This document shows positions 9,991 to 37,493 of a DNA stretch of 64,000 nt, in pieces. Within the stretch, counting starts at the first letter, position 1, and the number at the start of each line of letters is the position of its first letter. The translations under genes were made by a program, and so were the position numbers. The notes below the pieces were generated by a model that made no database searches, had not been told where the DNA came from, and saw nothing but the letters and a program-made list of their open reading frames with translations. Source of the stretch: Sinonovacula constricta (lineage: Eukaryota > Mollusca > Bivalvia > Cardiida > Solecurtidae); the NCBI GenBank assembly GCA_007844125.1, contig CM017570.1, positions 53,667,327 through 53,731,326 of the forward strand, given 5' to 3'.

Positions 9991-10185
9991 GGAAGCTAGG
10001 GAGAGATTTTCTGGAAAATCACTGGATATGCAAAATTGCATACATAAATAGTTCAGAGATACTGTACTAGGGATTTCCCTACATAATACAGGATATAAAA
10101 AACAGCATATAAATAAGGATGACAAACGAACATAATACAATGTATTACAAGCAGATTCTCACAAAAAACAAGAATACACTTATAT

Positions 10186-14332: not shown

Positions 14333-14851
14333 ACAGTTAAACCTGGATATTCAATATATGTCACGAACAGGCTAAGAAACAAAACCCTGTATCCTAAACA
14401 TCAGCAGCTTTAGAGATGTATCATAACTGCAAAGACACATTCTGGTCCAGACTGGTCATCTGGCAGCCTTGTTATTTCTTATATATTGGTTCCTCTACAA
14501 TAGACCAGTCTCACAGCAGACGGAACGTTCGTAACGTAATTTCCGTAGTAACAAAAACCATTTCCCAGCCAATGACAGATTGTCTGACAGGCCAGTCTGA
14601 TCTACAGTCAAACAGTCTTGTATTTGGTAAGGTCAAGACACAAGGGCTGTCACAGAAACAGTGTGCCAAGCTATTCAAATGCTTAGTTATATGATGTTAG
14701 CCTGAAAGATCTTGTATGCAAAACATTAACCTAAACATTACAGGGATGGTAATGCCAAAACCAATGCTGTGGGAGTGGACCAACTGTCCTTATTTACAGA
14801 CAAGTCGAGATAATATAACTTGGCTACACAGAAACCCAATCATGCATAAAC
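14333..14851. other. Short unique segment between two arrays
   Basis: Contains the partner of the 11435-11612 segment (14455-14645). A 92-codon frame (14416-14694) runs over that repeated segment and has no recognisable domain. No gene is called. Confidence 0.5.
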
Positions 14852-17800
14852 CTTACACAGTTACATATCAAAGTCTCCTTATACAGACAAAATGTCTCTA
14901 CTTAATAAATAAGTCAGACCAAAACATTATACAGTTACATATTTAAGTCTCCTTATACAGACAAATTGTTTCTACTTAATAAATAAGTCAGACCAAAACA
15001 TTATACAGTTACATATTAAAGTCTCTTATACAGACAAATTGTCTCTACTTAATAAATAAGTCAGACCAAAACATTATACAGTTACATATTAAAGTCTCCT
15101 TATACAGACAAAATGTCTCTACTTAATGAATAAGTCAGACCAAAACATTATACAGTTACATATTAAAGTCTCCTTATACAGACAAAATGTCTCTACTTAA
15201 TGAATAAGTCAGACCAAAACATTATACAGTTACATATTAAAGTCTCCTTATACAGACAAAATGTCTCTACTTAATAAATAAGTCAGACCAAAACATTATA
15301 CAGTTACATATTAAAGTCTCCTTATACAGACAAAATGTCTCTACTTAATAAATAAGTCAGACCAAAACATTATACAGTTACATATTAAAGTCTCCTTATA
15401 CAGACAAAATGTCTTTACTTAATAAATAAGTCAGACCAAAACATTACACAGTTACATATTAAAGTCTCCTTATACAGACAAATTGTCACTACTTAATAAA
15501 TAAGTCAGACCAAAACATTACACAGTTACATATTAAAGTCTCCTTATACAGACAAATTGTCACTACTTAATAAATAAGTCAGACCAAAACATTATACAGT
15601 TACATATTAAAGTCTCTTATACAGACAAAATGTCTCTACTTAATAAATAAGTCAGACCAAAACATTATACAGTTACATATTAAAGTCTCTTATACAGACA
15701 AAATGTCTCTACTTAATAAATAAGTCAGACCAAAACATTACACAGTTACATATTAAAGTCTCCTTATACAGACAAAATGTCTCTACTTAATAAATAAGTC
15801 AGACCAAAACATTATACAGTTACATATTATAGTCTCTTATACAGACAAAATGTCTCTACTTAATAAATAAGTCAGACCAAAACATTACACAGTTACATAT
15901 TAAAGTCTCCTTATACAGACAAAATGTCTCTACTTAATAAATAAGTCAGACCAAAACATTATACAGTTACATATTAAAGTCTCCTTATACAGACAAAATG
16001 TCTCTACTTAATAAATAAGTCAGACAAAAACATTATACAGTTACATATTAAAGTCTCTTATACAGACAAAATGTCTCTACTTAATAAATAAGTCAGACCA
16101 AAACATTATACAGTTACATATTAAAGTCTCCTTATACAGACAAAATGTCTCTACTTAATAAATAAGTCAGACCAAAACATTACACAGTTACATATTAAAG
16201 TCTCTTATACAGACAAAATGTCTCTACTTAATAAATAAGTCAGACCAAAACTTTATACAGTTACATATTAATGTCTCTTATACAGACAAAATGTCTCTAC
16301 TTAATAAATAAGTCAGACCAAAACATTATACAGTTACATATTAAAGTCTCTTATACAGACAAAATGTCTCTACTTAACAAATAAGTCAGACCAAAACATT
16401 ATACAGTTACATATTAAAGTCTCGTATACAGACAAAATGTCTCTACTTAATAAATAAGTCAGACCAAAACATTATACAGTTACATATTAAAGTCTCCTTA
16501 TACAGACAAAATGTCTCTACTTAATAAATAAGTCAGACCAAAACATTATACAGTTACATATTAAAGTCTCTTATACAGACAAAATGTCTCTACTTAATAA
16601 ATAAGTCAGACCAAAACATTATACAGTTACATATTAAAGTCTCTTATACAGACAAAATGTCTCTACTTAATAAATAAGTCAGACCAAAACATTATACAGT
16701 TACATATTAAAGTCTCCTTATACAGACAAAATGTCTTTACTTAATAAATAAGTCAGACCAAAACATTATACAGTTACATATTAAAGTCTCCTTATACAGA
16801 CAAAATGTCTCTACTTAAAAAATAAGTCAGACCAAAACTTTATACAGTTATATATTAAAGTCTCCTTATACAGACAAAATGTCTACTTAATAAATAAGTC
16901 AGACCAAAACATTACACAGTTACATATTAAAGTCTCCTTATACAGACAAAATGTCTCTACTTAATAAATAAGTCAGACCAAAACATTATACAGTTACATA
17001 TTAAAGTCTCCTTATACAGACAAAATGTCTCTACTTAATAAATAAGTCAGACCAAAACATTATACAGTTACATATTAAAGTCTTTTATACAGACAAAATG
17101 TCTCTACTTAATGAATAAGACAGACCAAAACATTATACAGTTACATATTAAAGTCTCCTTATACAGACAAAATGTCTCTACTTAATAAATAAGACAGACC
17201 AAAACATTATACAGTTACATATTAAAGTCTCTTATACAGACAAAATGTCTCTACTTAATAAATAAGTCAGACCAAAACATTATACAGTTACATATTGAAG
17301 TCTCCTTATACAGACAAAATGTCTCTACTTAATAAATAAGTCAGACCAAAACATTATACAGTTACATATTAAAGTCTCCTTATACAGACAAAATGTCTCT
17401 ACTTAATAAATAAGTCAGACCAAAACATTACACAGTTACATATTAAAGTCTCTTATACAGACAAAATGTCTCTACTTAATAAATAAGTCAGACCAAAACT
17501 TTATACAGTTACATATTAAAGTCTCTTATACAGACAAAATGTCTCTACTTAATAAATAAGTCAGACCAAAACTTTATACAGTTACATATTAAAGTCTCTT
17601 ATACAGACAAAATGTCTCTACTTAATAAATAAGTCAGACCAAAACATTATACAGTTACATATTAAAGTCTCCTTATACAAACAAAATGTCTCTACTTAAT
17701 AAATAAGTCAGACCAAAACTTTATACAGTTACATATTAAAGTCTCTTATACAGACAAAATGTCTCTACTTAATAAATAAGTCAGACCAAAACATTATACA

Positions 17801-19063
17801 GTTACATATTAAAGTCTCCTTATACAAACAAAATGTCTCTACTTAATAAATAAGTCAGACCAAAACATTACACAGTTACATATTAAAGTCTCCTTATACA
17901 GACAAAATGTCTCTACTTAATAAATAAGTCAGACCAAAACATTATACAGTTACATATTAAAGTCTCTTATACAGACAAAATGTCTCTACTTAATAAATAA
18001 GTCAGACTAAAACATTACACAGTCACATATTAAAGTCTCTTATACAGACAAAATGTCTCTACTTAATAAATAAGTCAGACCAAAACATTATACAGTTACA
18101 TATTAAAGTCTCCTTATACAGACAAATTGTCTCTACTTAATAAATAAGTCAGACCAAAACTTTATACAGTTACATATTAAAGTCTCTTATACAGACAAAA
18201 TGTCTCTACTTAATAAATAAGTCAGACCAAAACATTATACAGTTACATATTAAAGTCTCCTTATACAGACAAAATGTCTGCTTAATAAATAAGTCAGACC
18301 AAAACTTTATACAGTTACATATTAAAGTCTCTTATACAAACAAAATGTCTCTACTTAATAAATAAGTCAGACCAAAACTTTATACAGTTACATATTAAAG
18401 TCTCTTATACAGACAAAATGTCTCTACTTAATAAATAAGTCAGACCAAAACTTTATACAGTTACATATTAAAGTCTCTTATTCAGACAAATTGTCTCTAC
18501 TTAATGAATAAGTCAGACCAAAACATTATACAGTTACATATTAAAGTCTCTTATACAGACAAAATGTCTCTACTTAATAAATAAGTCAGACCAAAACATT
18601 ACACAGTTACATATTAAAGTCTCTTATTCAGACAAATTGTCTCTACTTAATGAATAAGTCAGACCAAAACATTACACAGTTACATATTAAAGTCTCTTAT
18701 TCAGACAAATTGTCTCTACTTAATGAATAAGTCAGACCAAAACATTATACAGTTACATATTAAAGTCTCTTATACAGACAAAATGTCTCTACTTAATAAA
18801 TAAGTCAGACCAAAACATTACACAGTTACATATTAAAGTCACTTATACAGACAAAATGTCTCTACTTAATAAATAAGTCAGACCAAAACATTATACAGTT
18901 ACATATTAAAGTCACTTATACAGACAAATTGTCTCTACTTAATAAATAAGTCAGACCAAAACATTATACAGTTACATATTAAAGTCTCTTATACAGACAA
19001 AATGTCTCTACTTAATGAATAAGTCAGACCAAAACATTACACAGTTACATATTAAAGTCTCCT
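14852..19063. repeat. 73/74-bp tandem satellite array, about 57 copies
   Basis: The unit runs TTACATATTAAAGTCTCCTT, ATACAGACAAAATGTCTCTA, CTTAATAAATAAGTCAGACC, AAAACATTATACAG. The CTCCTT form is 74 bases and the CTCTT form 73. Each unit contains a small perfect hairpin, AGACA-AAA-TGTCT, and a second dyad, ACTTA...TAAGT. Stops are frequent, so it is not coding. The array ends in mid-unit at 19063, exactly where the CCCAGC terminus of the proposed transposon begins. Confidence 0.95.
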
Positions 19064-19530
19064 CCCAGCCACAAAAGAAGCATGTGCTTCAGATTAGCCT
19101 CCCTGCTTAGAATACACCTCAAATGTACTTCAAATGTACTTCCAATAAAACTGACCTGCTTTATTGGAAGTCCCAGGGACTTTAATTATGCTTCCAAATC
19201 ATGCTTCAAATGAAGCCTGTGGGACTTCAGTAGTATTTTTTTATGTACACACATGCTTCACTTGAAGCATTAGGGACTTCCTTTGTAGTACTAGGGACTT
19301 TGTTGGTGCCTCATAAACACTGTTAAGAGAACAAATATTGCAGGTGTACTTCAATGATACCTTAAACACTTTGGGAGAATAAACATGCATTACTGGGGGA
19401 CTTCATTTGTACTTTCAAGACTTAAACTTTTTTTTATCAATATTTTATTTAGAGGAACTCCAATGGTACCTCAAAAACATAGAAAGAATGTCAGAGGGAC
19501 TTCATTTGTACTTATGAGACTTGTAAACAT
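19064..19530. repeat. Left terminus and subterminal motif cluster of the proposed transposon
   Basis: Terminus CCCAGCCACAAAAGAAGC. Variants of the motif follow: AAATGTACTTCAAATGTACT near 19120-19142, GTACTTCAATGATACC near 19345, GGGACTTCATTTGTACTT near 19397 and 19497, and ACTCCAATGGTACCTC near 19455. GGGACTT is a recurrent sub-motif. These resemble the closely spaced subterminal sites of CACTA elements. Confidence 0.65.
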
Positions 19531-20314
19531 TTTGATATAAGACTGTGTCTGACTCTTTCTGTCTAAAGTGTTTGATAAGGTAAAAAAAAACATTTTTTTA
19601 TTTAATAAATAATTTTAATTTACTGACAGTATTCATTCAGACATTAAAACCAATCAGACAGTAAGTTCTAAAAAAAGAGACTACCAAAAATATAGCCAGT
19701 ACAACAAGTAATGTTTTTGCACATATTTTATATCTTATTTCTATAATATTTAAAATTTGTATTTTCATTTCAAAATGAGTAATCATTTTAGTGACATGTA
19801 ATTATTTGTCAGTATGCAAGCTGGTTCATATTGTTTAAATTTAAGTAAAATATATTTAAACTTACAAATTGTTTAACATCCTTCCAATGCTATATACATG
19901 TAAATCTTTTCAAAATATTTATATATAAAGAATATATGACCCACTGAAAAAAAATCTCAAATATGGATTACTGACAGGATCTACTGACCCAGCTAGAATC
20001 TTATCAAAAGAAAATATGACGTACTGTTTGCAAACTTGATCTTTCCTATTAAAAATGCTAGTATTACTTGCAAAATTTTAACATTAGCCATATGGATTTT
20101 TGTACACAATAAAAGGAGAGTAATTATTCTTATTTTTCCAGCATAGCGTTAATTCATAATACATTGTAATAGAGGTCAAAAAAGTTAGATTAAATTTCAA
20201 AAGTAATAGCTCTTCTTTCATGTAACTCAACATGCATTCAGACTTGAATTTAACTTCAGATAGCCCTCTCTCCCTACTAGGGCTAGTGAATCCATCTATC
20301 TTGCCAACATTTTC
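19531..20314. other. AT-rich 3' flank of the transposase gene
   Basis: No open frame or clear repeat. This lies downstream of the minus-strand transposase stop and probably holds its 3' untranslated region, but I could not pick a polyadenylation site with confidence. Confidence 0.4.
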
Positions 20315-23300
20315 TTAGTCACTTTCACTGAATATTGGAATCTTTCCAATAAAACATGTGTCTGAATTACTTAAACATGCAAAATAGCACATATCTACAA
20401 TATTCTGTACATCTGCAGTGTCTGTTTCATCTGACTCTCTCACTTTGAAAAAATGACAAGGTAGCTTTATGTCACATTCTACTTTCTGTAATCGCTTAAT
20501 AACAGCCAAAAACTTAGTACATGAAGATAATGTATCTACCTTTAAGTAGTACAATATTTTTCCAAAGTAGGAAACATTATCAAGCACATATTCAACTGTG
20601 TAACTATTTCTTTTTGTTACAGACATGTACATTTTTGAATGAAACATAATTCCATGATTAAGTAACCTATAGAATTTGTATACATTGTTAACTGGCCCCA
20701 AAAGACCTTCAATTTGTTGCCTAGTTTCAGGCAAAAGCTGACAGTTAATTTGCCTTCCAACAGCTAATGAATGAGTACTGATATATTCTCGGTTTTTGTA
20801 CTTCTGATGATTAGTCAAACGCTGGTACAGCTGGTCAATCTCTGAGCCTTTTGGGATGGTTTTCACCAATTTTGGTAGCTGTTGGTGTATAGTGACAGCT
20901 GATGCTATCTGAAGTTCTATTTTTGTTGTTCCATGAAACAAAGAGCGTAAATCCCCATTTAAGTCTTCAAAAAAGAAACAAGACTGAGACCATAGTGGCC
21001 CAAGCTCTTCAACTTTTTCTGTAAGGTGCAGTAAACAATGTACGTTGTATGTTTCATAACGTGGTGCATACAAGTAATCAATTTGTGCACAGAATTTTTG
21101 AAGAAGCACTCTAGCTCTTGAAATATCTGATCTGGATATAGATGACTGAAGCAGTAGATATATTCCCTCCACAAATAGCATGTAATGTAGATAATATTCT
21201 TCAGATAGGATTCCTTGTAAACAACATACAGAATGAAACAGGAGAAATGACCTGAACTCTGTTGCTTTCCAATGTTTCAAGTCAGCAATACATCTTGGGG
21301 ACCTGTTAATCAGGTTAGGTGTTGTTAGTGCCTTCATGCGGTCATCCAAAACGGGTATGAAACCACCAATATAAAACTTTTCTGATTTATTGGTAGTATC
21401 AGTCCATAAGGTCAGCAGCATTTTCTGAACACCAAGCAATACACAGTGCATATAATCAACAGTAACACCTCTGATAATATCAAAGTAGCCTAAGTTTGTC
21501 AGGATAGTATGACCCTTCACACCATATTGTGATTTACCAGTCACTTCTGCATCCATGGAATGTCTCACAGTTTCTGAATGTGTGCGGAGAGGGGAATGTC
21601 CACATTCAGATGGATCTTCTGTATACTCGTACGGGTATGACAACATGGATCCTTTGGCACTTGTTTTTACTGACAGTCCCTTTGTGATACAACATCCACA
21701 ACCATAAAATCCATTAAACTGTACAAAGTTTTGAACCAGACATCTTGCAGGAGCATCACATACCACATTTAATAATACTGCACGAAGGAGAGTTTTCTTT
21801 CTGTTCAGTATCACTGATACCCCTGCACAAAAAAAAAAAATCGGTTTATATTGTTTCTCAAGACAGCACACATACTTACTTAGATTTATATTATTTTATA
21901 AAAAACATTTACCAGGTTGCAAATTTCAATAATTTTCAAAAGAATGTAAAAACATCAGTGGAATCGTGGATGCTATCTGATGCTCTTCAAAACAGACTTG
22001 CTAAATGATCCTTATGTCAGTATAAATGGTTTCCAGACTGAATAAAAAAGTAAAAGAAAGAATGACTTGAAACATATTCCAACAAAAATTATAGTTCCTG
22101 TTTGTATAAGCAAAGTCATGATTCTTGAGTTCTGCATGCCCATTCATTGAGATGTATTTTTTAAATTTCATTTTTATCCTATAAATTCAGCATTGTAGAG
22201 TTACACGCCTAACGATGAATTGATAAAAAGATTTGTAAGTGGCTTGTTTTTATTTCTCCCTACTGGGTGTTTTTTTCCTAACATAAGAGCATTTAGCCAC
22301 AGAAAAAATAAAATGTACAGATTTACATTTACCCATTGTGTAATAACCACAGGGCTCACACTGGCTGAAATTTGTTTTTAGCCAAATTAGCTTAATTTTT
22401 GACGATTTTACAGAAAATTTTGTAAAATAGCATAAATTAAGCTAAATTATTATAGCCAATTTAAAAAATTTGTAGCCAAATCTGTAAAATTTTAGCAAAT
22501 GGCTAAATTGGCTAATGGCAGGGTGAGCCCTGGTTTAACCATGAACATGTGGTCAGATAGACACTGGAAAAGGCAAGCCAGAGTGACCACAACAAGCCTG
22601 ATGGCATAAAAATTGTACCTTACCTTTTTCATACAGCGTTTTCAGCTCTTCAATAAGTGGTAGCAGGAAAACATTCATCAATGGTTTCACACCCCCAAAC
22701 CATAGTCCAGCAAAAATTCTATTGCGACTGTTAAACCTGTTAAAAGATTGTGAAAAATTTCAGTAAATATTCCAATCGAAAAAGATTATGCAGAGCAAGA
22801 AACAAAGCATTAATTTCATGTATTATAATGTGTTCAGAAATAGAGGATAATTGTTTGTTTCCATGAAGATAGAGATATAGCATGGCTAATATTATGATGG
22901 GGAACAAGTCGACCGGAAGAGTAAAATTATACGTTTTTATTATTTTCACTAGTGAAATTTTCAGAACATAATTTCACCGTTATATTTCAGTAATTCACCT
23001 AAAGCACGAAATAAAAACACTAGTTTTCTCCAAGTTTGAAACTTAAGATTAAAGCAAATAGAAATTACTGTTTATTTGATAAGTGAGAATATCTTTTTTA
23101 CCAACATACCTTTGTTTAGGGTGCAACTCATTTATGATGAGATAAAGTGGCCACACGCTGTAAGATGATGACCTAAATATAGAAACACCATCTGTGTTCA
23201 GCTGTAATGAAATATGTAATTCCTTGGACATATTTCTTTGCTGTGTGCCTATGAAGTGAGATCCGTTGAAGTGACTTTTGTATAAGTCACCATCAAAAAC

Positions 23301-25669
23301 ATCATCAATGTTACTTCCTGTCATCTTCTCCCTGTTTTCCCTGTAGTTAACTTCTTTTTCCGATAAACCTGTAATATCATAGTTTTTTTTAGAAATTATT
23401 TATGAAACAGAATTACACTAGTCAGATTTCTGATAGAACTTGAAATATTACAAAAAAGGAAGTTATAAATGCTAGCAAAACACTGGTCTTAATTCAAAGT
23501 AATAATTCCTATTTTTTTAGACAAGTACAATACTATTATCTACACTGTATCATACCAGCAATTTATGATACCAGAACTTTCTAGCATTCTCAAGTATAGC
23601 AGATATTGCAAGGAAACTGTTTTCAGTCAGCTTAGTGTCACTGTTGTGAATCCCTGACTTTGGACCTTACAAGTCATAAACAATAAGGCCTTACAGCTCT
23701 CCATAAGTAATCATCTGAAATATTTGACCAATTACCATAATGGACACAGTAGGCTAAAGTTCTCAAATTACTACAAAGACGCTAAGTGGTCTACACACTG
23801 GCTGACATAAGCAAATAAATAAACTCCCTTTTCTATGACATATTTTGTATGTTTTTAGGCTTCTTGTTAACCAAAACTTTTTGATCCTATTTTTAAACAA
23901 AAATCGATGAAAAAGAAAGAAAGAATGTAAGGAAAAATATATTTTACCTGAAAGAATAGACTGTAACTGACCAGCAATTGGAATGTACATGAAGTATTTT
24001 TCTTTCTTTTTGCCACAGAATGTGCACTCTTCCCTACTTATAATGCCAGAGTACTCCTTACAAAAGTCACAGAAATAATGTTTTTGCACAGGTGAAGTCA
24101 ATTCACTAAAGAAATTGTAAAACATGTGCATAGTGCTCCGACATAAGTTTGGTGTCAAGCAGTGTAATTCCAAAAGGCTTAACAAATCTTTCGTAGCTTC
24201 TCTTGTCAGCTGATGTCTCATTACAAATGTAATTATCAGAACCATACTCTCCAGAACAGATATTCTTGAACCACTATATAATGGTACATCTTTGGAAGCA
24301 TTCCTTGGATCTGAAAAAAAAATTGATTTATTTGTAAAAAAAAATCTTTATTGAAAATAAATATATAAAATACATAAACATATGTTAACAACAGAAAGCA
24401 GTATTTGTACTATTTGTGCAGGACAATATGAGTTCAATCCCTTATTGTGCTATACCAATACATTAAAAAATTTATTGGTGCTCATCTCAGCTGGCCTCTT
24501 CTCTCACATCTTCATAGCTAGTTGTAAAAATTTCTTCCAGTCCAACGAAAATTTTTTACGACAAACCAAACTTTTTGTGCGTAAAATTACCTCCCTAAGT
24601 AACTGAGTTTTAAATGCAGAAAATACCTTAAATACCTTCACTTTCTTCCTCTTCTGATTCTGAATCCTCTTCATCATCAGCAAAATGGGAATACACATTA
24701 CCACTTGCAGTACTCTCTGTAAAAAACTCCTCATCAACATTCTCGGTAGCATCACTGGAAGCTACTGTAATATTATCAGCTCCTTGACATTCAGCTGATG
24801 CTGTATGAAAAAAAAACAAAAACATAAATGATTAATTTTAGGAAAACATGGAGAATGAAGTAATTGTTTAAAAGCCACTTTTAAGCTATGATTATTTTCA
24901 ACCATAGGGTAATTTATCACCAAATATACTTTTTCATCGCATTCGACGACAATGGCAACCAACAGCGCCAACACTGGTTTCGGTCTTAAACGCTGTCTGG
25001 TGTCTGTTCTACCAAAAGTGCAGTGTACATTCGCCATTATTAGCATAATTATAATACACATTATGTGTAATTTTCCTAGTAAAATGCCTTGGTAGTTTGG
25101 CGCAGAGGAGAGGGGTCTTGTACTGGTTCTTCCCAGGAAAGATGGTTAGGAAACTACCTGCCCATATGACTGAAATACTGTCGAAAAGGGCATTAAACCA
25201 CAAAAACAAAACAAATCCTAGGAAAATTGATATAGTAAGTCAGAAATATGTAACTGTTTCATATCGTTTGAGTGGCATTTTCTCAGCTCCTTTTATTTTT
25301 TGTATTACAAGCAAAAAACATATAAATTATACTAGTTCCTCAAAGAAAGTTCTATAACTTAATAAAAGTTTACATTTTAGCAAAATCTGTTTCCTGATAC
25401 CATAACATGGATTCAAAATTGTTCATGTAGTTTGTAAACGTCAAGAAATTTTACCTAATGTTGTATCATTTAAATCTTGGTGGGTAATTAAGTGTACGTC
25501 TTCATCAACAAGACTTGTAGGCATGGAGCTGCTGCTTAGTCTTTTCTTTTTGAACCAAGTTGTACATCTAGGTTCTTTGACATTTTCTAAATGTTTTGAT
25601 TTATTATATGGTCCCCTTCTCTTTCTTTTTCCTGGAATATTGGCATTGTTCTCTGCCATATTACTGAAC
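20315..25669 (-). CDS. EnSpm/CACTA-type (TNP2/DUF4218-like) transposase, 870 residues, six coding exons
   Basis: Coding exons on the minus strand: 25659-25455 (ATG at 25659), 24800-24636, 24310-23948, 23368-23110, 22736-22624, 21822-20315. All have GT-AG borders and every phase agrees, giving 2613 bases with no stop until 20315. Residues 1-68 are basic (GKRKRRGPYNK, a probable nuclear signal), and about 95-123 are strongly acidic. Residues 204-222 form a CxxC...CxxC zinc ribbon. LNTDG (D304), CDAPA (D391), VDYMH (D491, H494) and FEDLNG (E654) are family blocks likely to hold the DDE acidic residues. The segments around LNTDGVSIF...WPLYLIINELHP and GLWFGGVKP, and the GPLWSQSCFFFEDLNG block, are typical of animal TNP2/DUF4218-like proteins. 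It should cut and paste the surrounding element in the nucleus. It is intact despite repeats in its introns, so it may be active or domesticated. Confidence 0.85.
22350..22532. mobile_element. MITE with CAGGGCTCAC terminal inverted repeats, in a transposase intron
   Basis: Left end CAGGGCTCACACTGGC; right end GCAGGGTGAGCCCTG, whose complement is CAGGGCTCACCCTGC. Length 183 bases. The body is AT-rich and itself partly self-complementary, with repeated AGCCAAATTAGC-like segments. CAGGG termini are typical of hAT-type MITEs. Flanks AATAACCA (left) and GTTTAACCA (right) share TAACCA but do not align as an exact 8-base duplication. A second, interrupted copy is at 27091-27776. Confidence 0.8.
25095..25212 (+). 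repeat. 5'-truncated SINE in a transposase intron
   Basis: The body ends in ACTGTCGAAAAGGGCATTAA followed by ACC and an A/C-rich tail, ACAAAAACAAAACAAA. This 3' end type is shared by bivalve tRNA-SINEs. No tRNA head is visible upstream, so the copy is truncated. The intron's splice sites are unaffected. Confidence 0.65.
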
Positions 25670-25974
25670 CTAAAAAAAAGTTGAGTGTAACAGTAACTGC
25701 ATACGGGTGTATCACAATAAATTTTCTCTTACCACGCTTCTAAAATCATTACTTTCAAAGGATTTCACTGGATCACTTTCATGATTCTTCCCAAATCTTG
25801 AACATCAAATGTTTGTACATGTATATAAATGAGATTTTTAGCAGACAAGGAAAACAAAATCAATTAAAAAAAGAATATTTAACTTATTGACTGGTACATG
25901 TAGTGTTTTTTTTACGTTTCTTTAACGTAAATTAATTTACATAAAATATAACAGCCGTATTTCCAGCCAAATTG

Positions 25975-26335
25975 CTATGATACGGGCCCGTATCTGTAGT
26001 CCACAGGCTACCAAAACATCCCATATCTGTAGCCACTTCTTTCACAAAAAGATAAGGTAATTGTTTGTTTTACTATTAGCAAAATATAATTGCGCCTTTT
26101 TAAACAATTTAAAGGAGAATGTTGCCCTCTGAAATTTGTCAAATTTGACATTTGTTTGCCCAACTTAATATAAACAAACATAGTCATAGATATAAATAAG
26201 GCCGTATTCATAGCAAAAATGCGTAGAATAGACTACCAATACAGGCCCGTATATGCAGCCTACTGGCTATGAATGCGGGCCTGTATCTGTATCCCACAGG
26301 CTACCAATTGAGCCCTGCATCTGTTGCCACTTCCT
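25975..26335. repeat. Pair of ~70-bp direct repeats in the 5' UTR intron
   Basis: Segments 25975-26043 and 26267-26335 share GGGCCYGTATCTGTA, CCACAGGCTACCAA, CATCTGTWGCCACTTC in the same order, about 292 bases apart. They lie inside the inferred 5' untranslated intron of the transposase gene (25672-26601). They may be regulatory or part of an unclassified repeat; I cannot decide. Confidence 0.55.
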
Positions 26336-26602
26336 TCTAAAAAACAATTCACTGGCTTTATGTTCAGACACCTGTTAATAGTTATCATCCAATATAAATT
26401 CATTGGCTTAAAAAATTGCATGCAATATTTAAAACATTCTGGCGCTTTCCGTTATAATCCATTTTTTTTTACTTTTAATAAAGTTTCATAATCGGCAAGT
26501 TCCGATTCTGCAAATTCATATTTCTCGGGTTTTCACCGTCTTATGAATATAAATTACTTAAAAATTCGGAAGAAACGAACAAAATAAACTTAACACATTA
26601 CC

Positions 26603-26875
26603 TGAGTCACTGCAGAACTATTAAATCAATGCCTGGTTGGAAATAGAAAATTTAGAAATTATCCGGAAGTTCCTGAAAATTCTAAGACGCCATGTTCTTA
26701 CAACTGCTTCCTGTGAGTCTATCGAGTAAATTGATTGGTCCGATCCAAGAACGTGCCAGCATCCTCCAAGAGTTATCAAAGCTGATTGGTCGAATCCGCA
26801 AAAAAGCGCGCTATTACTCTGTGTAAACACAATCGTCTGTATCAGTTCTTAAGCGTGAATCTTGCATTTGAAAAA
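26603..26875. promoter_or_regulatory. Bidirectional promoter between transposase and BEN-domain genes
   Basis: A minus-strand 5' UTR exon ends with a clean donor at 26602/26601 (CTCAG|GTAATG), and its acceptor lies just before the transposase ATG (TTTTAG at 25671-25670). The plus-strand BEN ATG is at 26876. The 270 bases between hold two ATTGG (inverted CCAAT) boxes in the contexts TTGATTGGTCCGATCC and CTGATTGGTCGAATCC, about 50 bases apart, and an ETS-type CCGGAAG. No TATA box is obvious. The layout implies shared control of both genes. Confidence 0.6.
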
Positions 26876-29800
26876 ATGTTTCTGTTAGTTTTATGGGTTC
26901 TTGAGGGTTCGTACAGTGTGATAAAGGCATCTGACGTTCAACAGCCGCGGCGAGAATTTGAAAATTACGAATGTGGTGAACGAGTGCAAGCAAAATTTCA
27001 GAAAAAAACCTATCCGGCGAAGATCATGAAGAAAGGAGGTAAGCACAGGCCAAATCCTTTTTTTTTAATTTATCATCGTTTCTTTGAAGCAGGGCTCACA
27101 CTGGCTGAAAATTATTTGTAGACAAATGACCGTAATTTTCAGTGACTACAGAAAATTTTGTGAAAAGCCATAAACAAGCGTAGAAATGAGGCGGAAAAAG
27201 GTTTACAGTCAAAACACCCCCAGTCAAAACGTCCCCTAGTCAAAACACCCCCTTTTTGGTTAAAACACCCACCTTTTCAAGTCAAAACACCCCCTTTGTG
27301 AAAAAACCTTGTCAAAACACCGTACGAATAGCCACTGCCAATTATTTATCAGTATTCAGTAATAATCAGTTTATTTATAATTACAATTTCAGATAATGAG
27401 TTTTGAATAAAAATAAGTTGGGGGTGTTCTTCAATTTAAAGGAGGGGGTGTTTCGACCAAATTTCAAGTACAATTGGGGGTGTTTTAACCAAACCAGGGG
27501 TGTTTTGACTAGGGGACGTTTTGACTGGGGGGTGTTTTGACCTGATACCCGGAAAAATCAACCTGGTATTTGCACATTCAAGCAGCTACTTTTTATCATT
27601 TTTTCTTCTGTTTTACTTAAAAGAGAACCTCAAATTGATCGCCTATTTTTGAAGTTAAACAGACTACATGAAATCATTTCTACACCCCTGCATAAAGATA
27701 AATTGAGCCAATTATATGTAGCCATGTCTATAAAATTTTAGCAAATGGCTAAATTGGGAAATGGAAGGGTGAGCCCTCTTGGAAGGAGCTTGATAATTAG
27801 ATATTCTCGGTATTGGCATGACAAACTGACCAATCACTCTCAGCTAACGCCTCATCCGTGTCCTTGAAGTTTCGGACTTTATTATCCGTGATTAAGCAAA
27901 TTTAGCTTTTCTTTATGCTTATTCTTTATTTTATTTTGGCTAAAAATCACTGGAATTCAAAATTTATACCTCAACATATTTGAAAAGGCTATCAATAAGC
28001 TTTTTTGTGTTATTAATGCCCGAAGTTACATAGGTTCGGTGATTATGTCCGAAGCTTTCATCTTTTACGGGTATGATTTTTCATCGCTAATCAAATGTCT
28101 AAGGGGTGTGGTTTTCTCAGGAAATACTGTTTTGATCAAGGTCAAACTTCAAGCTCAAATGCGAAAAATTGACCAAAATTAGCTTGTCCGGACTGTAACT
28201 CTGTCATTTGATGAGGGAATTTTAAATAACTTGGCACAAATGTTAACCATCGTGAGACGTGTGTCATGCGCAACAACCATGTGGCTATGTTTAAGGTCAA
28301 GGTCAAACTTCAAGGTCAAATGCGAAAAAATTGTCCAAAATCAGCTTTGTCCGGACCAGTACTAGATGTCATTTGTTGCGGTTATTAAAAAGGTCATATG
28401 CGAAAAAAAAGCTAATCTGCTTCTTGCTTACTGCTGTAAATGCTGTATTTACCATTGTGTAACATCTGCACCAGTTAATGAATGAAACCTGCTTCTAAAA
28501 ACATGCTCGGGCGTATTATGCCCCTGTGTCAACGGAGCTTATGTTTAAGTGCTGTTTTAAATTTTACAGACAACAAGAAAGACTTGACACTGGAAATGGA
28601 TCGAATTATATCAAGATGTAATCAGAAAATTCTGTCTGCACTAGAAATTGGTAAGTGTTTTTTCAGGTTAGCAATGGTTGCTATGCTTCGATAGAAAAAT
28701 CAGTTTCACACCTGTCATCAACTGCTGTATATGCTAATATCGCTATCTTCAGCTTCAATAAGCTGCAGTAATGATGGACAGTTTCAGAAATCTTAAATTT
28801 TATGCTTGATATGACTGTAATATTGAGTCTCTGAATACCAAAGAAAAAAAGAATATCAGCTTTATGTAAAATATATGATACTGCTATTGCTCTTGCTATT
28901 CTTAAAGTAATCACTCTCACTTGAGTATTTGTTTTTCCTTAAAAATGTAACAGGAATGAGTCAGTCATGTATATGTATATTTAATTGTTTCATTGTGTCC
29001 CCACCACAAAGTGGGGGGACACTTAGAGTTGCTCTTGTCCGTCCGTCCGTCTGTCCGGTTTGTGAACGCAACTCCTCCTAAACAATAAGGCGGATTTTCT
29101 TCAAACTTCTGCAGATTAACAACCAGGACTGGGGTATGTGCATGAAGCTTGGATTTTTGATTGCCGCCCTTTTTACCAGAGTTATGGCCCTTTGTTGTTT
29201 TTCCCTATATAATGTATATGAAATCATGTAAACGCAACTTTTCACTAAATATGTGCAAGTTTCACTATATAAGACAATTACTACTTAAGTATTCATTATA
29301 CAAGCAGTTAAAGTGTTACTTATTTGGTTAAGATTTCTGACAAATAGGCCAGGTGGGGACACGCGTGTCCATCAGACGCAATCTAGTTTCTTTTTAACAT
29401 GCTTGGGTGAAGTAATTTTCAAACCTCATGAGTAGCTTTATTAACCAGGTTTTCAATTTTGAAAATCCTGGTTATTAGATTGGGGTATGGCGGGCGGATG
29501 GGCGGGCGTCAAACGAAATTGTGTCCGCTCTGTAACTCTTCAACCCTTTGAAGAATTTTGATGAAACTTCAGACAAATGTTTACCACATCAAGATGACGT
29601 GCAGAACGCATGTTCCGCATGGCTGGCTCCAAGGTCAAGGTCACAGTGACATTAACATTGAAAATCCTGTCCGCTCTGTAACTCTTCAACCCTTTGAAGA
29701 ATTTTGATGAAACTTCAGACAAATGTTTACCACATCAAGATGACGTGCAGAACGCATGTTCCGCATGGCTGGCTCCAAGGTCAAGGTCACAGTGACATTA

Positions 29801-32800
29801 ACATTGAAAATCCTGTCCGCTCTGTAACTCTTCAACCCTTTGAAGAATTTTGATGGCTCCAAGGTCAAGGTCACAGTGACATTAACATTGAAAATCCTGT
29901 CCGCTCTGTAACTCTTCAACCCTTTGAAGAATTTTGATGAAACTTCAGACAAATGTTTACCACATCAAGATGACGTGCAGAAATTGTTGTCTCATTATTA
30001 AGTATACTCCTTGCAGACAGTATTGTTAGCCGAAATTTACATCCTACTCATTATCATGTATTCTCATGAATATTATCTTTTCCTTCATGTCATGTTATAA
30101 TCTTTTGAATATTCATAGCAATCTTCATTCCAAAATTCATACTATAGTATAGAATCAGAACAACATTTTTGAAAACCTGGTTTCGTGGCATTGCCATGTT
30201 TCTTGTTTCATTTATTTCAGAAGAGGCAGAAAATGGAAAACAAACAAAGAAATGTCCAGAACGACCCAGCACAGAGAAAGCAGGTTTGTACTTCAAATAC
30301 ATGTGCTAACTGCAAGAACATTTAATTATTTGGGTACAAGTCTAAACTTTTGTTGGTTTTGTCTGAATGCTGCTTTTTCCTGTTGAATTTAATACTGATT
30401 TATGATTATAACTTTCAAATAAAGAACGTGAAACTTAATAAAACAGTGTGACATAATTTAATTACATTAATTTTGAGAAACATAAAAATATCGCACAAAT
30501 ATTTCGCAGTATAGTGACAGTATCCAGTGATTATTATTTATCCCACTTGTCAGTGCGCAATATCTTCATCTCCAATACCTCTGGTCCAATTTTAATGAAA
30601 CTTCACAGAAGTAATCAGTATAAAGTCTACTTCTGTATATTGTCATCTTGTTCCACTCCAAAGGATGTTTCACTGAATTATGGCCCTTTAATAGTCACTT
30701 TAGAATAAAATTTAACATTAACCTACATGTATACCACAAGACCTTAATTGTAAAATGCTACTTAATTCTTTCAGTTGCTGTGTTATACTTCATATTTAGA
30801 TGAGTAAATGTAAAATAATGGAACTCTTTCTTGCACTGTGGGTTCATTGCAGTAAACTGTAATACATGTACATATATATATATTTTGAATGAAAACTTCA
30901 TAAGTTTTTTCTTTCTTGTACAATAGATAATCTGAAAATTAGGGCCTCGGAGATGGAGAAAGAGGCATTGAATGAAAAACGGCAGAAAATTCTTGAAGCA
31001 AAGGAAGAGAAACTTTTAAGAGAAGAAACCCTAAAGAAAAAAAAAGAGAAGGTCATCGCAAGTCTTGAGGAAAAATTGAGTACCGTACCTGAATTTCCAT
31101 CAACTACTTGGTCTTATTCAAGCCCAACTTCTACATCAACCTGCAGCCCAAGAAGATCTCCACGAACCAAAACTGTTCCGAGATCTTTGTCTTTCACTGC
31201 ACCACAAGTGAACAGGAAAGGATACCAGACCACAGCTCAAAAGCAGCCGAGATCTTACTATACAAGCCCCACCACCTCAGCTTCACCTCTTTCATCACCT
31301 GAGCCATCACCAATCAAAGAAACAGGACAAAGCATAACAATGCTAAAACCAGTATCTCCCTCCTTGTTTCAGAAGAAGAGACCTGCCCAGGATTGTGCTA
31401 GCTGCGAATTACTCAGAACGGAAAACCATGAACTGAAGAGGCAACTAGATGATTTGAAGAAGAGTGAGTGTTTTAATGAATCACATAATTTGTTCATCGG
31501 TAGAAATTCATGTTTAAAACATTTTCACATAGAAAAAAGTTAAAGCCATACCACTCCTGAACAGACTGTTAAACCCAGTCTGCTATTATTCATGCTTGGT
31601 TGAATTCTGCCCTTCTTGGGGATCTTTCTACAGATTTTATTAAATGTAGGCAAAAAATTACATGTTCCAGCTACATTTCGCAGTTCATATAAACATTTTA
31701 GCATTAAAACACATGATTGATGTGCATTTTAAGCACTATTTCTTCTGTTACATAACCTAGTTATCTTAAAAAAAAATGTTCATTTCGGTCCAGTATTCCT
31801 TCTATTTTACCCTCTGAAGAGACTCACCACAATCTCCCACCCAACCCTACCCCCCCAAAAAAAGAACAGTCTTTTATTTGAGACTGAAACTGATTATCTT
31901 GGTATTTATTCATTTAAATGTATTGTTGTTTTTTTATAGGATTGTCACAAAGCGTAACAACTTCTGACCAATACTCTAGGCCAAAAGCAGGTGTTCATGA
32001 TCCAGAATATGCTGCAGCAAATGGAGTAAGTAAACATTCATTGATAATAGTTCATATCTTATGCATGTTTTATATAGACATTTCAAGACACTTAGCTTAA
32101 TATGGAGAATGCAAATCTATTGACCAAGTTAGGACCCTAGGTAAGGTGTATGTTCTCCGTGATGTTTTGATAGACTTAGTTGTATGAAATAATTCCTTCT
32201 CCACCCCTTATCCATGTGGAGATGGCAGTACCGGTACAGAATCATGGAATACTGGTTAGATTAACTGCCCCATTTTGTAGCTGAAATATTGTTATATATA
32301 TAAAGTGTAACAACACTTGACTGTAACAGCATTCTTTGCTAAGTGACATTAATCCTGTCCTATTTATTTTCCAAAATAATTATAATTTGAACCTTGTTGT
32401 AATAACACCTGTATTGCCCAATAGCTAAAAATACTTCTAGGACGAGTAATGGTTGTATTGAGTAAAAATACTCATTTTCTAGCCCTTTGCAGTATGTGTA
32501 AAGTCTTGTATCATTTAAAATGCAATTTTATAATCATCAGCTAGAAAATGACATTAAAAATGTTTCTCAGAAATTGACATATGTAATAGTGCCCATGATA
32601 TGTTTGAAATAATTGAACAGTTCAGCATTCTTTTCAGAACCAGTAAATATGCAGTTCATTGACCTAGTTTTAGGATTGTTGTATCATAAAGATGTATTTA
32701 ATGTACTAGAATTGCTTATTGTATATAGGAAGTTTTATAAGTGAAAATGATAACTGCCATACAGATTCTTTTTGTCTTAATTTACTGTTTTCAATTATAC

Positions 32801-35800
32801 AGATGAAAGAACTGGTTCAAGGAATGGGTGTGTTCCTACACATGGACCAGTTCCACACTGCACTTAATAAGGCAGCACCATGTGTGTCCCCCAGAGCCAA
32901 GGGCAGTGGAGGCAAAGAAGTTCAGGATGGCAAGAGAGTTGCAAGATACCTTCTTACTGCTTTCTTTTCAAAAGAAGAACTGGCAAACAGCAGCCTGACC
33001 AACTCACAACTTAGCCAGTACCCTGCTCTGAACAAACAAATTGTGGATGCTATAATTGGTAAGTTTTATAAGATAAAGGCAGTGACATAATTTACAGTTC
33101 ATTGTCAGAAGGATAGTACAATACAGCAATAGCTTCTCACATAAATTTAGTAAGAATTACATTTATGGCGGTTCAATACATGCATGTATAGTGGGAGCTT
33201 GTTAGCTCACCTGAGCATGCTCATGTGAGCTTTTAGGATCATTGATTGTCCGGCGTCCGTCCGTCCGTCCGTCCGTCCGTCGTCCACAATTCATACAAAC
33301 GACATCTCCTCTGAAACCACCAGGCAAAATTTAATGAAACTTGCCTAGAATGTTCCTTGCATGAAGCTCTACCAAGTTTGTTCAAATGGTTCCGGTTCAT
33401 TGCATTTCTGGGTCACAGGAGCTAAAAACAGATTTTAAAAGTTGGATCTTTAAAAATCTTCTTGTCAGAAACCACAAGGCCTGGAGCTTTGATATTTGGT
33501 ATAAAGCATCATCTAGTGGACCTCTACCAAGTTTGTTCAAATTATGATCCTGGGGTCAAAAATGGCCCCGCCCCAGGGGTAACTTGTTTTACATAGAGTT
33601 ATATAGGAAAAACTTTAAAAATCTTCTTGTCAGAAACCGTAAGGCATAGAGCTAAGATATTTGGTGTGTACCATTGTCTAGTGGACCTCTACCAAGTTTG
33701 TTCAAATCATGGCCTCTGGGTCAAAAATGGCCCCGCCCCAGGGGTAACTTGTTTTACATAGAGTTATATAGGAAAAACTTTAAAAATCTTCTTATCAGAA
33801 ACCAAAACGCTTAGAGCTAAGATATTTGGTATGTAGCATTGTCTAATGGACTTCTAGCAAGTTTGTTCAAATTATGATCCTGGGGTCAAAAATGGCCCCG
33901 CCCCAGGGGTAACTTGTTTTACATAGAGTTATATAGGAAAAACTTTAAAAATCTCCTTATCAGAAACCGTAAGGCATAGAGCTTAGATATTTGGTACGTA
34001 GCATTGTCTAGTGGACCTCTACCAAGTCCGTCAAATTATACATCTGGGGTCAAATTTGGCCCCACCCTGGGGTCATTGGTTTTACATAAGCTTGTATAGG
34101 AAAAACTTCGAAAAATCTTCTTGTCTTGTCTGAAAGGTTGCTTTGATGATTTCTAGGTCAAGTTTAAATATAGGTCATCTGGGGTCAAAAACTAGGTCAC
34201 AGAGCCCAAAAATAGAAACATCTTGTTAACACTCTAGAGGTTACATTTTCAGCCAAAATAATCTTGAAATTTGTCAGAAAGGTTGCTTTGATGATTTCTA
34301 GGTCAAGTTTAAATATAGGTCATCTGGGGTCAAAAACTAGGTCACAGAGCCCAAAAATAGAAACATCTTGTTAACACTCTAGAGATTACATTTTTAGCCC
34401 AAATAATCTGGAAATTTGTCAGAAAGGTTGCTTCAAAGATTTCTAGCACAAGTTCAAATATGGGTCATCTGGGTTTAAAAACTAGGTCACAGAGCCCAAA
34501 AATAGAAAAACCTTGTTAACACTCTAGAGGTTACATTTTCAGCCAAAATAATCTTGAAATTTGTCAGAAAGGTTGCTTTGATGATTTCTAGGTCAAGTTT
34601 AAATATAGGTCATCTGGGGTCAAAAACTAGGTCACAGAGCCCAAAAATAGAAACATCTTGTTAACACTCTAGAGATTACATTTTTAGCCTAAATAATCTG
34701 GAAATTTGTCAGAAAGGTTGCTTCAAAGATTTCTAGCACAAGTTCAAATATGGGTCATCTGGGTTTAAAAACTAGGTCACAGAGCCCAAAAATAGAAAAA
34801 TCTTGTTAAAACTCTAGAGGTTACATTTTCAGCCCAAATAATCTGGAAATTTGTCAGAAAAATTGCCTTAAGGATTTCTAGATCAAGTTTGAGTATGAGT
34901 CATCTGGGGTCACAAACTAGGTCACAGAGTCCAAATATGGAAAAACCTTGTTAATATTCTAAAGGTAGCATTTTCAGTCCAAATAACCCGGAAATTTGTC
35001 AGAAAGATTCTATGGATGATTTCTAGCTCAGTTTTGAATATAGGTATTCTGGGGTCAAAAACTAGGTCACAGAGCCCGAAAGTAGAAAAACCTTGTAAAA
35101 GCTCTAGAGGTTACATTTTTAGTTTAAATGTCCTTGAAATTTGTCAGAAAGGTTGTTTCAATGATTTCTAGCTCAAATTTGGATATGGGTCATCTGGGAT
35201 TAAAAAATAGGTCACATGGTGCAAATATGTAAAAAACTTTTTAACACTCCAGAGGTTACATTTTCAGTCCAAATACCCTAGAAATTTGTCAGACAGGTTT
35301 TTTTGATGATTTCTAGCTCAAGTTGGAGTATGGGTCATCTTGGGTCAAAAACTAGGTCACAGAGCCCAAATATGGAAAAACTTTGTAAACACTCTAGAGG
35401 CTACATTTTAAGTCCAAATGTCCTGGAAATCTGTCAGATAGGTTGTTTTGATGATTTGTAGCTCAAGTTTGGATATGGGTTATCTGGGGTCAAAAACTAG
35501 GTCACAGAGTCTAAATATTGAGAAACCTTGTTAACACTCTAGATGCTACTTTTTCAGTCCAAATATCCTGCAAATTTGTCAAAGAGATTGTTTCAATAAT
35601 TTCTAGGTCAAGTTTGAATATGGGTTATCTGGGGTCAATTAAAAAGGTCCATAGCAACTTTGTTAAAAGCAGTCATACTCAGGTGAGCGATACAGGGCCA
35701 TCATGGCCCTCTTGTTTAAAAATCAGTTGCCGAATTTTTGGGATGTTTCATGTTTTTTTTTGTTTTTTTTTTGCGTTGGGTTTTAAGTCACACCGACACA

Positions 35801-36424
35801 TATTAAGGTCATATGGCGACTTTCCAGCTTTAATGGTGGAGGAAGATCCCAGATGCCCCTCCGGCCATTATTTCAGGCACGGGCGGGCATCTGGGTAGAA
35901 CCACCGACGTTCCGCAAGCCAGCTGGATGGCTTCCTCACATGAAAGAATCTCGTCCCGAGTGAGGCTCGAACCTACAGCGGGAGGGGCAAGTGATTCGAA
36001 GTCGCAGCGACTCTAACCACTCGGCCACGGACGCCCCTGTTTCATGTTTAGCATTTTGTATGTGATATACACCAAAGCAGTTTGAAATGTTTGTCTTTGT
36101 GAAATCTGTTATATCACCAGATGGTAAAAATGTAGGTCATGCAAGTTTTGATCAGTGCTGAGTTTCAAGTATCTAGGTGAGTGACTCGGTGCCTCCATGT
36201 CCCTCTTGTTACTTACCATGCGTCTTATGAACAGTCAGGATCAAATTATTGTTTGGTTCCTAATCTAGATGCACAGACTTTTAACATGTTACTTTGTCTT
36301 AATTTCAGCTTTTTCAGTGTCCAATTCAAACACTCCACGCGGAGAAATTTTAAGAGCGTTGAGGGCCAGTCTTACATCAAAAAGATGCAAGCTAGTCAAG
36401 AAGGTGGAACAAACAGAAGCCTAA
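26876..36424 (+). CDS. BEN-domain protein, 433 residues, seven exons
   Basis: Exons 26876-27038, 28570-28650, 30221-30283, 30927-31463, 31940-32025, 32803-33058 and 36309-36424 all have GT-AG borders. Phases agree throughout (1302 bases, stop TAA at 36422). ATG 26876 is preferred over an upstream in-frame TTG. Residues 1-54 form a small N-terminal module (MFLLVLWVLEGSYSV...) of a type I associate with animal BEN-domain proteins. Residues about 103-153 are a highly charged coiled coil, and 154-258 are Ser/Pro-rich. Residues 259-281 form a second coiled coil beginning CASCE. Residues about 311-425 are the BEN domain: a helical block with GKRVARYLLTAFF, then ELANSSLT and PALNKQIVDAI. BEN domains bind DNA or chromatin. 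Its head-to-head pairing with a transposase suggests an accessory DNA-binding role in transposition. A polyadenylation signal AATAAA is at 36594. Confidence 0.85.
27091..27776. mobile_element. Second CAGGGCTCAC MITE copy, split by a foldback element
   Basis: The left part (27091-27180) begins CAGGGCTCACACTGGCTGAA and the right part (about 27700-27776) ends GGAAGGGTGAGCCCT. Both match 22350-22532. About 500 bases of other sequence, including the foldback element at 27208-27541, sit between the halves. This gives the order of insertion: MITE first, foldback later. Lies in intron 1 of the BEN gene. Confidence 0.75.
27208..27541. mobile_element. Foldback/MITE with long GTCAAAACACCCC inverted repeats
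   Basis: The left arm starts GTCAAAACACCCCCAGTC and continues AAAACGTCCCCTAGTC. The right arm (27497-27541) is its near-perfect reverse complement, over about 45 bases. Each arm is itself made of direct copies of GTCAAAACACCCC. Non-coding. It would form a strong hairpin in single-stranded DNA or in intron RNA. Confidence 0.8.
28090..28545. repeat. Unclassified interspersed repeat with AAGGTCAAACTTCAAG units
   Basis: Two related internal units (about 28130-28200 and 28293-28360) share AAGGTCAAACTTCAAGSTCA, AATGCGAAAAA and GCTTTGTCCGGAC. It ends with GGGCGTATTATGCCCCTGTG, a palindromic terminus seen in many molluscan repeats. Lies in intron 1, just upstream of BEN exon 2. Confidence 0.6.
28997..29394. 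repeat. Unclassified interspersed repeat with GTCCCCACC inverted ends
   Basis: Left end TGTCCCCACCACAAAGTGG followed by a GTCCGTCCGTC run. The right end contains AGGTGGGGACACGCG then ATCTAGTTTC. GTCCCCACC and GGTGGGGAC are inverted. No coding capacity. Lies in intron 2 of the BEN gene. Confidence 0.65.
29437..29985. repeat. Interspersed repeat with near-identical 146-bp internal units
   Basis: Begins AACCAGGTTTTCAATTTTGA. The block GTCCGCTCTGTAACTCTTCA recurs at about 29523, 29669, 29815 and 29900: two 146-base steps, then a unit shortened to about 85 bases. Copies are almost identical, so the amplification is young. Minus-strand frames of 60 and 88 codons here are translations of the unit and not genes. 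Lies in intron 2 of the BEN gene. Confidence 0.8.
33205..35715 (+). repeat. Long interspersed repeat with 165-bp and 145-bp internal arrays
   Basis: Left end TTAGCTCACCTGAGCATGC, followed by (GTCC)n. Right end TCAGGTGAGCGATACAGGG, then CCATCATGGCCCTCTTGTT. The ends contain inverted AGCTCACCTGA/TCAGGTGAGC. About four units of 165 bases (for example GGAAAAACTTTAAAAATC at 33606, 33771, 33936) are followed by about ten units of 145 bases (GGTTGCTTTGATGATTTC at 34136, 34281, 34426). Same layout and ends as 7753-8955. It fills most of intron 6 of the BEN gene. Confidence 0.85.
35756..36037 (-). repeat. tRNA-Ser/Leu-like SINE with 12-bp target-site duplication
   Basis: On the minus strand it starts GGGGCGTCCGTGGCCGAGTG, GTTAGAGTCGC (A box), followed by GGTTCGAGCCTCACTC (B box). 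The body contains GGCTTGCGGAACGTCGGTGG, and it ends in a poly-A tail (poly-T at 35751-35776 on the plus strand). The 12-base string TGTTTCATGTTT flanks it at 35744-35755 and 36038-36049. It is a complete, well-bounded insertion in intron 6 of the BEN gene. The type I tRNA head with a long conserved body recalls domain-sharing SINEs known in bivalves; the family was not determined. Confidence 0.9.
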
Positions 36425-36974
36425 ATGGAAATGAAAAACAATGAGAAAACCACACCTTTGAAGCTGAAGTGAACCCACAGAATTGTGTTTAGCTCACTTG
36501 GATTAATCTCTTTAAAGAACAAAGTTGCTATCACATATTTAATTAAATCTGTCAGAATGTTTAACTCTGTGAATTCTTGACCATTTTTTTTTAAATAAAA
36601 TGTGTCATGTCAGATAAAAAAAATAAGACTGGATCAAAGCATAGTAAATCCTTATTAACAGGCCAGAAGTCAAATTTTCAAACATTCAAAAATCATGGTC
36701 ATTAGATTATGATAGAGTAAATTTAACAGCCCAGAAGACATTTTTAAAAAGTAAAAGTTTTGATCATTATTAACAAAAAACTGTAGTCTGATTCTGGTGA
36801 TCAATGCAGGGCCTTCTGGGCTCTCTTGTTCATTGTGTGTACGCATAAATATATGTGTATAAAGGGATGTTTTACTTTAGATAATAAAAAGAGTTATTTA
36901 CAAAGGGAATTATTTATTTTGATTTATTTCAACTGTGAGCATGACTTTAGTTTTTTAATAGCATGTATCCAAAT

Positions 36975-37493
36975 AAGGTGGTGCTTTAATAGTACTTCTT
37001 GAAAATGTTGCTATAAATATGCTTGTCTGTTTTGCTTAGGTACTTAAATGATACTTCAAAGGTACATCATATGTACTTCACTTGTACTGAATGTAATGCT
37101 TCAATGGTACTTCAAATGTACTTTGTTTTAACCCAGTATGATACTTCAATGGTGCTTCAAATGTACTTCTTAGAGCTTCCTTCTGTGATACTTCAATGGT
37201 ACTTCTGACACTGATACTTCAAAGGTACTTCATTGTCCAGTATGAGGAGCTTCTGTTGTGCTTCCAGTGTACTTCAAAAACGCTTCTTTTGGCAAAGTAC
37301 ATTTGAAGCATAATTTAAATATTTTAGACGGAACTTCAAATGTACTTCACCTAAACGTTGGTAACTACTAGTTACTGCCAGGAGTATGAAGTACATATAA
37401 AGCAGGTACTTAATTGATACATGATTGGTACTGCAGTAGGGGGCTTTAATTGTACTTCTTTGGTACTTTAAATGTACTGTATTTGCAGCTGGG
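36975..37493. repeat. Right subterminal motif cluster and terminus of the proposed transposon
   Basis: At least ten copies of a GTACTTCAAATGTACTTC-like motif are packed into 500 bases (for example near 37045, 37075, 37103, 37143, 37190, 37217, 37270, 37330). The region ends AATGTACTGTATTTGCAGCT then GGG. The reverse complement of the end, CCCAGCTGCAAA, pairs with the left terminus at 19064. Confidence 0.7.

Follow-up and report, generated by a model that had tools for sequence, protein, structure and literature searches.

Positions 19064 to 37493 of a 64,000-nucleotide stretch of the Sinonovacula constricta genome (GenBank assembly GCA_007844125.1, contig CM017570.1; the whole stretch is called the window here, and position 1 is its first letter) are a single transposable element that carries two genes, one for a transposase and one for a protein with what profile comparison indicates is a diverged BEN domain. 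The unit begins with CCCAGCCACAAA and closes with TTTGCAGCTGGG, and it is found whole at seven unrelated places in the genome, with both genes present in each. We consider it probable that this is an animal CACTA transposon of the TRC type, with two divergently oriented genes, one for a tnp2-type transposase and one for a diverged BEN-domain protein; arrays of a CTTC motif close to the ends are the predicted binding sites of the BEN protein, and the transposase would then pair and cut the termini.

Copies were counted by searching the species' own genome (1.22 Gb) with the two ends of the unit, and the counts are lower bounds. The first 501 bases retrieved eight matches and the last 501 bases seven, all at 100% identity, and every right-end match was assigned to one of the eight left-end loci. 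All eight left-end copies, the window's included, share the exact first base, and the sequence before it is unrelated; the flanking 100 bp of different copies match position by position at only 15 to 35%. Since each of the seven full right ends pairs with a left end, the BEN-type gene travels with the transposase. A host gene lying beside a separate element is ruled out by the seven full copies that carry both genes. A reading of the window made from its letters alone (the sequence-only reading) had proposed a single element, and the seven copies with both genes between the same termini and in unrelated surroundings bear this out. The opposite pattern, in which the two genes would occur apart and with no shared boundaries, was looked for in the same genome, and the result favours a single element.

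The full copies are 18,430, 18,724, 19,207, 19,225, 19,228, 21,413 and 24,410 bp long. As judged by exon positions, three introns of the BEN gene (1, 2 and 6) account for most of this variation; the copy on C5, for example, has 5.2 kb extra in intron 2. All 13 exons of the two genes are present in all seven full copies, and both coding sequences lack internal stops in five. Taken singly, the transposase frame is free of internal stops in six of seven (exon 5 of the C17 copy shows a gap of one base plus a mismatch) and the BEN-gene frame is intact in six of seven (the C9 copy has a one-base gap in exon 4). With three satellite blocks left out and gaps not counted, pairwise substitutions among the seven copies amount to 0 to 0.04%. 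Outside these blocks, one of 3915 coding sites and nine of 11247 noncoding sites carry a substitution, and 31 of the 11247 noncoding sites are gapped in some copy. The near-identity of the copies points to a very recent spread of the element.

The 2-bp flanks are identical in three of the seven copies (TT, AA and TT), and the chance probability of at least three such matches, calculated from base composition, is 0.011; three-base flanks match in none. The copy at 17.1 Mb of C13 sits inside a 25-bp satellite. When its flanks are joined and one TT is removed, the sequence GGATTGTGTTTACAGGGC is obtained, and the same 18 bases run uninterrupted in other units of that satellite, which we take as a clean match to the empty site, the insertion having duplicated 2 bp. 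Aligning the ends of the copies thus fixed the termini to the base and gave the 2-bp duplication of the animal TRC group in three copies, one of them with an exact empty site, and not in the other four.

The transposase gene lies on the minus strand, from 25659 to 20315, and consists of six exons with GT-AG introns that encode 870 amino acids with no internal stop. The BEN-protein gene (plus strand, 26876 to 36424) has seven exons, GT-AG introns and an open frame of 433 amino acids. Two intact multi-exon genes placed head to head were thus found with the coordinates and frames first described. The transposase matches Transposase_21 (tnp2), the domain of the TRC group, with 60.8 bits, against a Pfam cutoff of 28.6. 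P0002, a protein of 786 amino acids from a 3,838-base contig, is 100% identical to it over 89% of the query; it joins exons 2 to 6 without interruption across four model introns, and its first ten residues correspond to another frame of exon 2. In the genome, exons 2 to 6 occupy 4,486 bases. Since P0002 is continuous across four introns and its contig is shorter than the genomic span, the contig is spliced and most likely derives from RNA. Its source label, lgn, we take to stand for the Logan assemblies.

Relatives of the transposase were numerous: 300 proteins at E<=0.001 among 7989 candidates scored. A Mercenaria mercenaria protein with 77% identity is among the closest relatives listed, and the named relatives among the best 120 of the 300 come from bivalves, gastropods, a brachiopod and corals. 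Judged from these matches, the family is wide across animals. Viral contigs scanned for the transposase contained no relative.

A CACTA-type transposase has already been described in animals (PMC1636069). According to the passages available from that paper, animal TRC elements have CCC-core ends (the Aedes terminal inverted repeat is CCCAGTCAAC) and a 2-bp duplication, which in SmTRC1 of Schistosoma was seen in 7 of 14 copies; the Tribolium and Aedes elements measure 5.2 and 9.2 kb. The present element resembles them in its Transposase_21 protein, in its CCC-core terminal inverted repeats (CCCAGCCACAAA and CCCAGCTGCAAA in the seven full copies) and in a duplication at part of the copies (3 of 7). 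It differs in being larger, 18 to 24 kb, in its dense subterminal arrays and in its separate head-to-head BEN gene; no second gene is named for TRC elements in the same passages (PMC1636069). Since transposase, CCC ends and 2-bp duplication all match, the element belongs with the animal TRC group of the CACTA (CMC) superfamily, and the EnSpm/CACTA label first given to the transposase holds for the animal kind. Two consensus elements of the CMC kind are included in a curated bivalve library (PMC10294476).

The ends of the unit are densely populated with one motif. The leftmost 500 bp contain 15 copies of CTTC or its complement GAAG and the rightmost 513 bp contain 23; the window averages 3.2 per 500 bp (standard deviation 3.1), and its densest stretch elsewhere has 12. 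The 18-mer named in the sequence-only reading has 12 matches in the window with up to three mismatches, against 0.13 expected; 2 of them stand at the left end of the unit and the other 10 at the right. The two terminal inverted repeats are identical at 10 of 12 bases. Both the motif clusters and the short matching termini are therefore as that reading had them. At the right end, pairs of motifs spaced by 11 bp number 10, against 0.8 expected, and 10 was never reached in 20,000 random placements, although this control disregards tandem duplication at the local scale. A spacing of one helical turn would suit a protein that binds cooperatively along one side of the double helix.

The BEN assignment was examined by comparing profiles. 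A profile of the BEN region and a Ruditapes relative was aligned by hhalign with a reference profile of four solved BEN domains (Insv, Bsg25A, BEND6 and NACC1), giving a probability of 87.4 and a score of 35.9 over 61 columns; none of 40 controls with shuffled columns scored above 18.7, about half the real score. The alignment to the solved domains runs along the domain. The resemblance to NACC1, BEND6, Insv and Bsg25A thus consists of a BEN signature aligned by profile. BANP offers a further likeness, since it joins a coiled coil to a BEN domain, as the element's protein seems to do (its coiled coil was judged by eye); according to the text available, BANP must form oligomers to select unmethylated DNA (PMC11472053). 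In contrast to the element's strongly diverged BEN, all five are host proteins located off transposons. A BEN-like fold is, however, also found in DBD1 of the Tn3-family TnpA, where, as the available part of the paper describes, it reads the transposon's terminal repeats (PMC9579193). That domain is bacterial, is fused within the transposase and serves another transposition system; since a BEN-like fold reads the ends of Tn3, the fold would suit an end-binding job.

In maize, TnpA binds the subterminal repeats and TnpD is the transposase; such two-protein CACTA systems are known from plants, and where the subterminal motifs of plant elements are dissimilar, the DNA-binding proteins used for them are dissimilar too, as far as the available passages go (PMC2613891). 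By the same source, the present element shares with plant En/Spm and Tgmt* a tnp2 transposase, asymmetric subterminal repeats and, by prediction, a second DNA-binding protein, and with Tgmt* also a size of about 20 kb (PMC2613891). The differences lie in the ends, which are CACTA with a 3-bp duplication in plant En/Spm and CCCAG here, and in gene layout, TnpA and TnpD being produced from one transcription unit by alternative splicing, whereas two divergent gene models are found here. It is plausible that the BEN protein is the counterpart of TnpA. By analogy, we infer that it may bind the subterminal arrays and take part in pairing the ends: it would coat the CTTC arrays cooperatively, draw both ends together and recruit the transposase, which would pair and cut the CCCAG termini. 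The BEN protein would then occupy the place of TnpA and do the job that TnpA does for TnpD in En/Spm.

Several observations weigh against this reading. The BEN match reaches 15.7 bits with the whole protein and 17.1 with its C-terminal piece, below the Pfam cutoff of 23.2, and Pfam gives no hit at all for the relative from Ruditapes. Structure models built from two- and three-row alignments (mean predicted local distance difference test, pLDDT, of about 50) were too poor to lend support and gave no Foldseek match at E<=0.001, and no transcript of the BEN gene turned up in the BEN-protein search. The left CTTC cluster is sparser and contains one 11-bp pair, and the motifs are mostly in plus orientation at both ends, whereas sites that simply pair the ends would be expected to mirror each other. 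Four of the seven copies, including the window's (CT versus TA), have no matching 2-bp flank. At the eighth left-end copy the sequence gives way to unread N, and the readable part fetched shows neither a BEN exon nor a right end. The sub-cutoff Pfam score, taken together with the profile-profile support, is why we call the BEN domain diverged; the BEN claim of the earlier reading survives in this form, weaker than it was stated.

A different role for the BEN protein, as a regulator encoded by the transposon that binds DNA of the element to control transcription or to resist host silencing while the transposase recognises the ends alone, seems to us unlikely, although of the alternatives it is the one with most in its favour. 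BEN proteins are mainly chromatin and transcription factors (PMC11472053, in the text available), the SmTRC1 figure legend shows one predicted open reading frame (PMC1636069, from the part available), and the head-to-head arrangement gives the two genes a common 1.2-kb stretch that contains a perfect 16-bp palindrome, GATACGGGCCCGTATC, at 25979-25994 and a duplicated block with copies at 26002 and 26295 and the common sequence CACAGGCTACC. The dense motif arrays, however, lie at the ends of the element, and none of the top windows listed falls between the genes. Moreover, maize TnpA is credited, in the literature passages available, with both promoter control and binding of subterminal repeats, so that regulator and end-binder need not exclude each other.

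More doubtful still is the idea that the element captured the BEN gene from a host and carries it as a passenger that contributes nothing to transposition. Such a passenger would agree with the outcome of the protein searches: against the 300 relatives of the transposase, the BEN-protein search found one, from Ruditapes, with only the C-terminal third in common, and this relative and the listed Ruditapes transposase are on contigs of differing size. That search, which matched P0001 at 7.5e-44, was word-based, however, and therefore misses distant BEN relatives. A search with the BEN region alone came back empty and missed even P0001, and we give its negative result no weight. Also contrary to a passenger, the gene is retained in all seven full copies and its seven-exon frame is intact in six, although the copies are very young and intactness is therefore weak evidence.

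An origin of the copies in segmental duplication or in assembly repeats, rather than in transposition, has next to no probability: their very high identity and the four copies with no matching 2-bp flank would fit, but in seven places the similarity breaks off at one and the same base at either end, and the unrelated flanks and the exact empty site of one insertion rule segmental duplication out.

Returning to the transposon with a BEN end-binder, we regard it as an evenly balanced possibility that an animal CACTA lineage independently built a two-protein machine like that of maize with a recruited BEN protein as end-binding partner, that the element is young enough that it may still jump, and that BEN proteins of animal chromatin and of transposons may share a history. 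No description of a transposase paired with a BEN protein, nor of a helper protein for an animal CACTA-type transposase, was found in the titles, abstract openings and passages seen of the open-licence papers listed by the searches, and a term look-up in the main text of a survey of metazoan transposon-derived transcription factors gave no BEN (PMC10027918). If correct, the reading would connect mobile DNA of animals with a domain known from chromatin factors, in addition to the BEN-like domain with which the bacterial Tn3 transposase reads terminal repeats. With seven copies that are nearly identical, and both genes intact in five of them, the element offers a tractable system for studying whether a BEN protein acts as a transposon end-binding factor.

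Table 1. Features of the two-gene element (window positions; a point in the strand column marks features with no strand).
Feature	Positions	Strand	Remarks
Whole two-gene element	19064..37493	.	18,430 bp; same termini and both genes in 7 genomic copies
Left terminal inverted repeat, CCCAGCCACAAA	19064..19075	+	identical start in 8/8 left-end copies, flanks unrelated
Left subterminal CTTC cluster	19064..19563	.	11 plus and 4 minus motifs
Transposase exon 6, stop codon	20315..21822	-	gene model, P0002, domain match
Transposase exon 5	22624..22736	-	gene model, P0002
Transposase exon 4, Transposase_21 match begins	23110..23368	-	gene model, P0002, domain match
Transposase exon 3, contains CxxC...CxxC pair	23948..24310	-	gene model, P0002
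Transposase exon 2	24636..24800	-	gene model, P0002
Transposase exon 1, start codon	25455..25659	-	gene model
Head-to-head intergenic stretch, putative two-way promoter	25660..26875	.	1.2 kb; promoter role is a prediction
BEN-protein gene exon 1, start codon	26876..27038	+	gene model
BEN-protein gene exon 2	28570..28650	+	gene model
BEN-protein gene exon 3	30221..30283	+	gene model
BEN-protein gene exon 4, lysine/glutamate-rich charged coiled-coil-like stretch	30927..31463	+	coiled coil judged by eye
BEN-protein gene exon 5	31940..32025	+	gene model
BEN-protein gene exon 6, bulk of BEN domain	32803..33058	+	gene model, profile comparison
Satellite arrays, 165- and 145-bp units, last BEN-gene intron	33448..35638	.	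intron length varies between copies
BEN-protein gene exon 7, end of BEN domain, stop at 36422-36424	36309..36424	+	gene model
Right subterminal CTTC cluster	36981..37493	.	21 plus and 2 minus motifs; 10 pairs exactly 11 bp apart
Right terminal inverted repeat, inward reading CCCAGCTGCAAA	37482..37493	-	7/7 full right ends stop exactly there

The three BEN-gene introns of variable length are located at 27039-28569 (intron 1), 28651-30220 (intron 2) and 33059-36308 (intron 6) and differ by up to several kb between copies; in the window copy, introns 2 and 6 contain satellite arrays. Intron 1 houses a 54-bp inverted repeat (27217-27531) with arms 94% complementary and 207 bp apart, which looks like a small nested element.

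One further, weak right-end match lies elsewhere in the genome, outside the eight left-end loci, on C10. It was rejected as a further copy, since the 40 kb followed there matched neither the transposase nor the BEN protein at E<=1. This locus (L036, G000:C10:35725824-35725893) is a GTAC/AAGTAC repeat cluster, 79% like the right-end array over about 70 bp.

Long tandem arrays surround the element in the window. An array of 73-bp units, 4.2 kb long (14848-19061), stops two bases short of the left terminus and is not continued in the right flank; others occupy 12006-14325 (34-bp units), 40050-42914 (63-bp units) and 10180-11139 (47-bp units).

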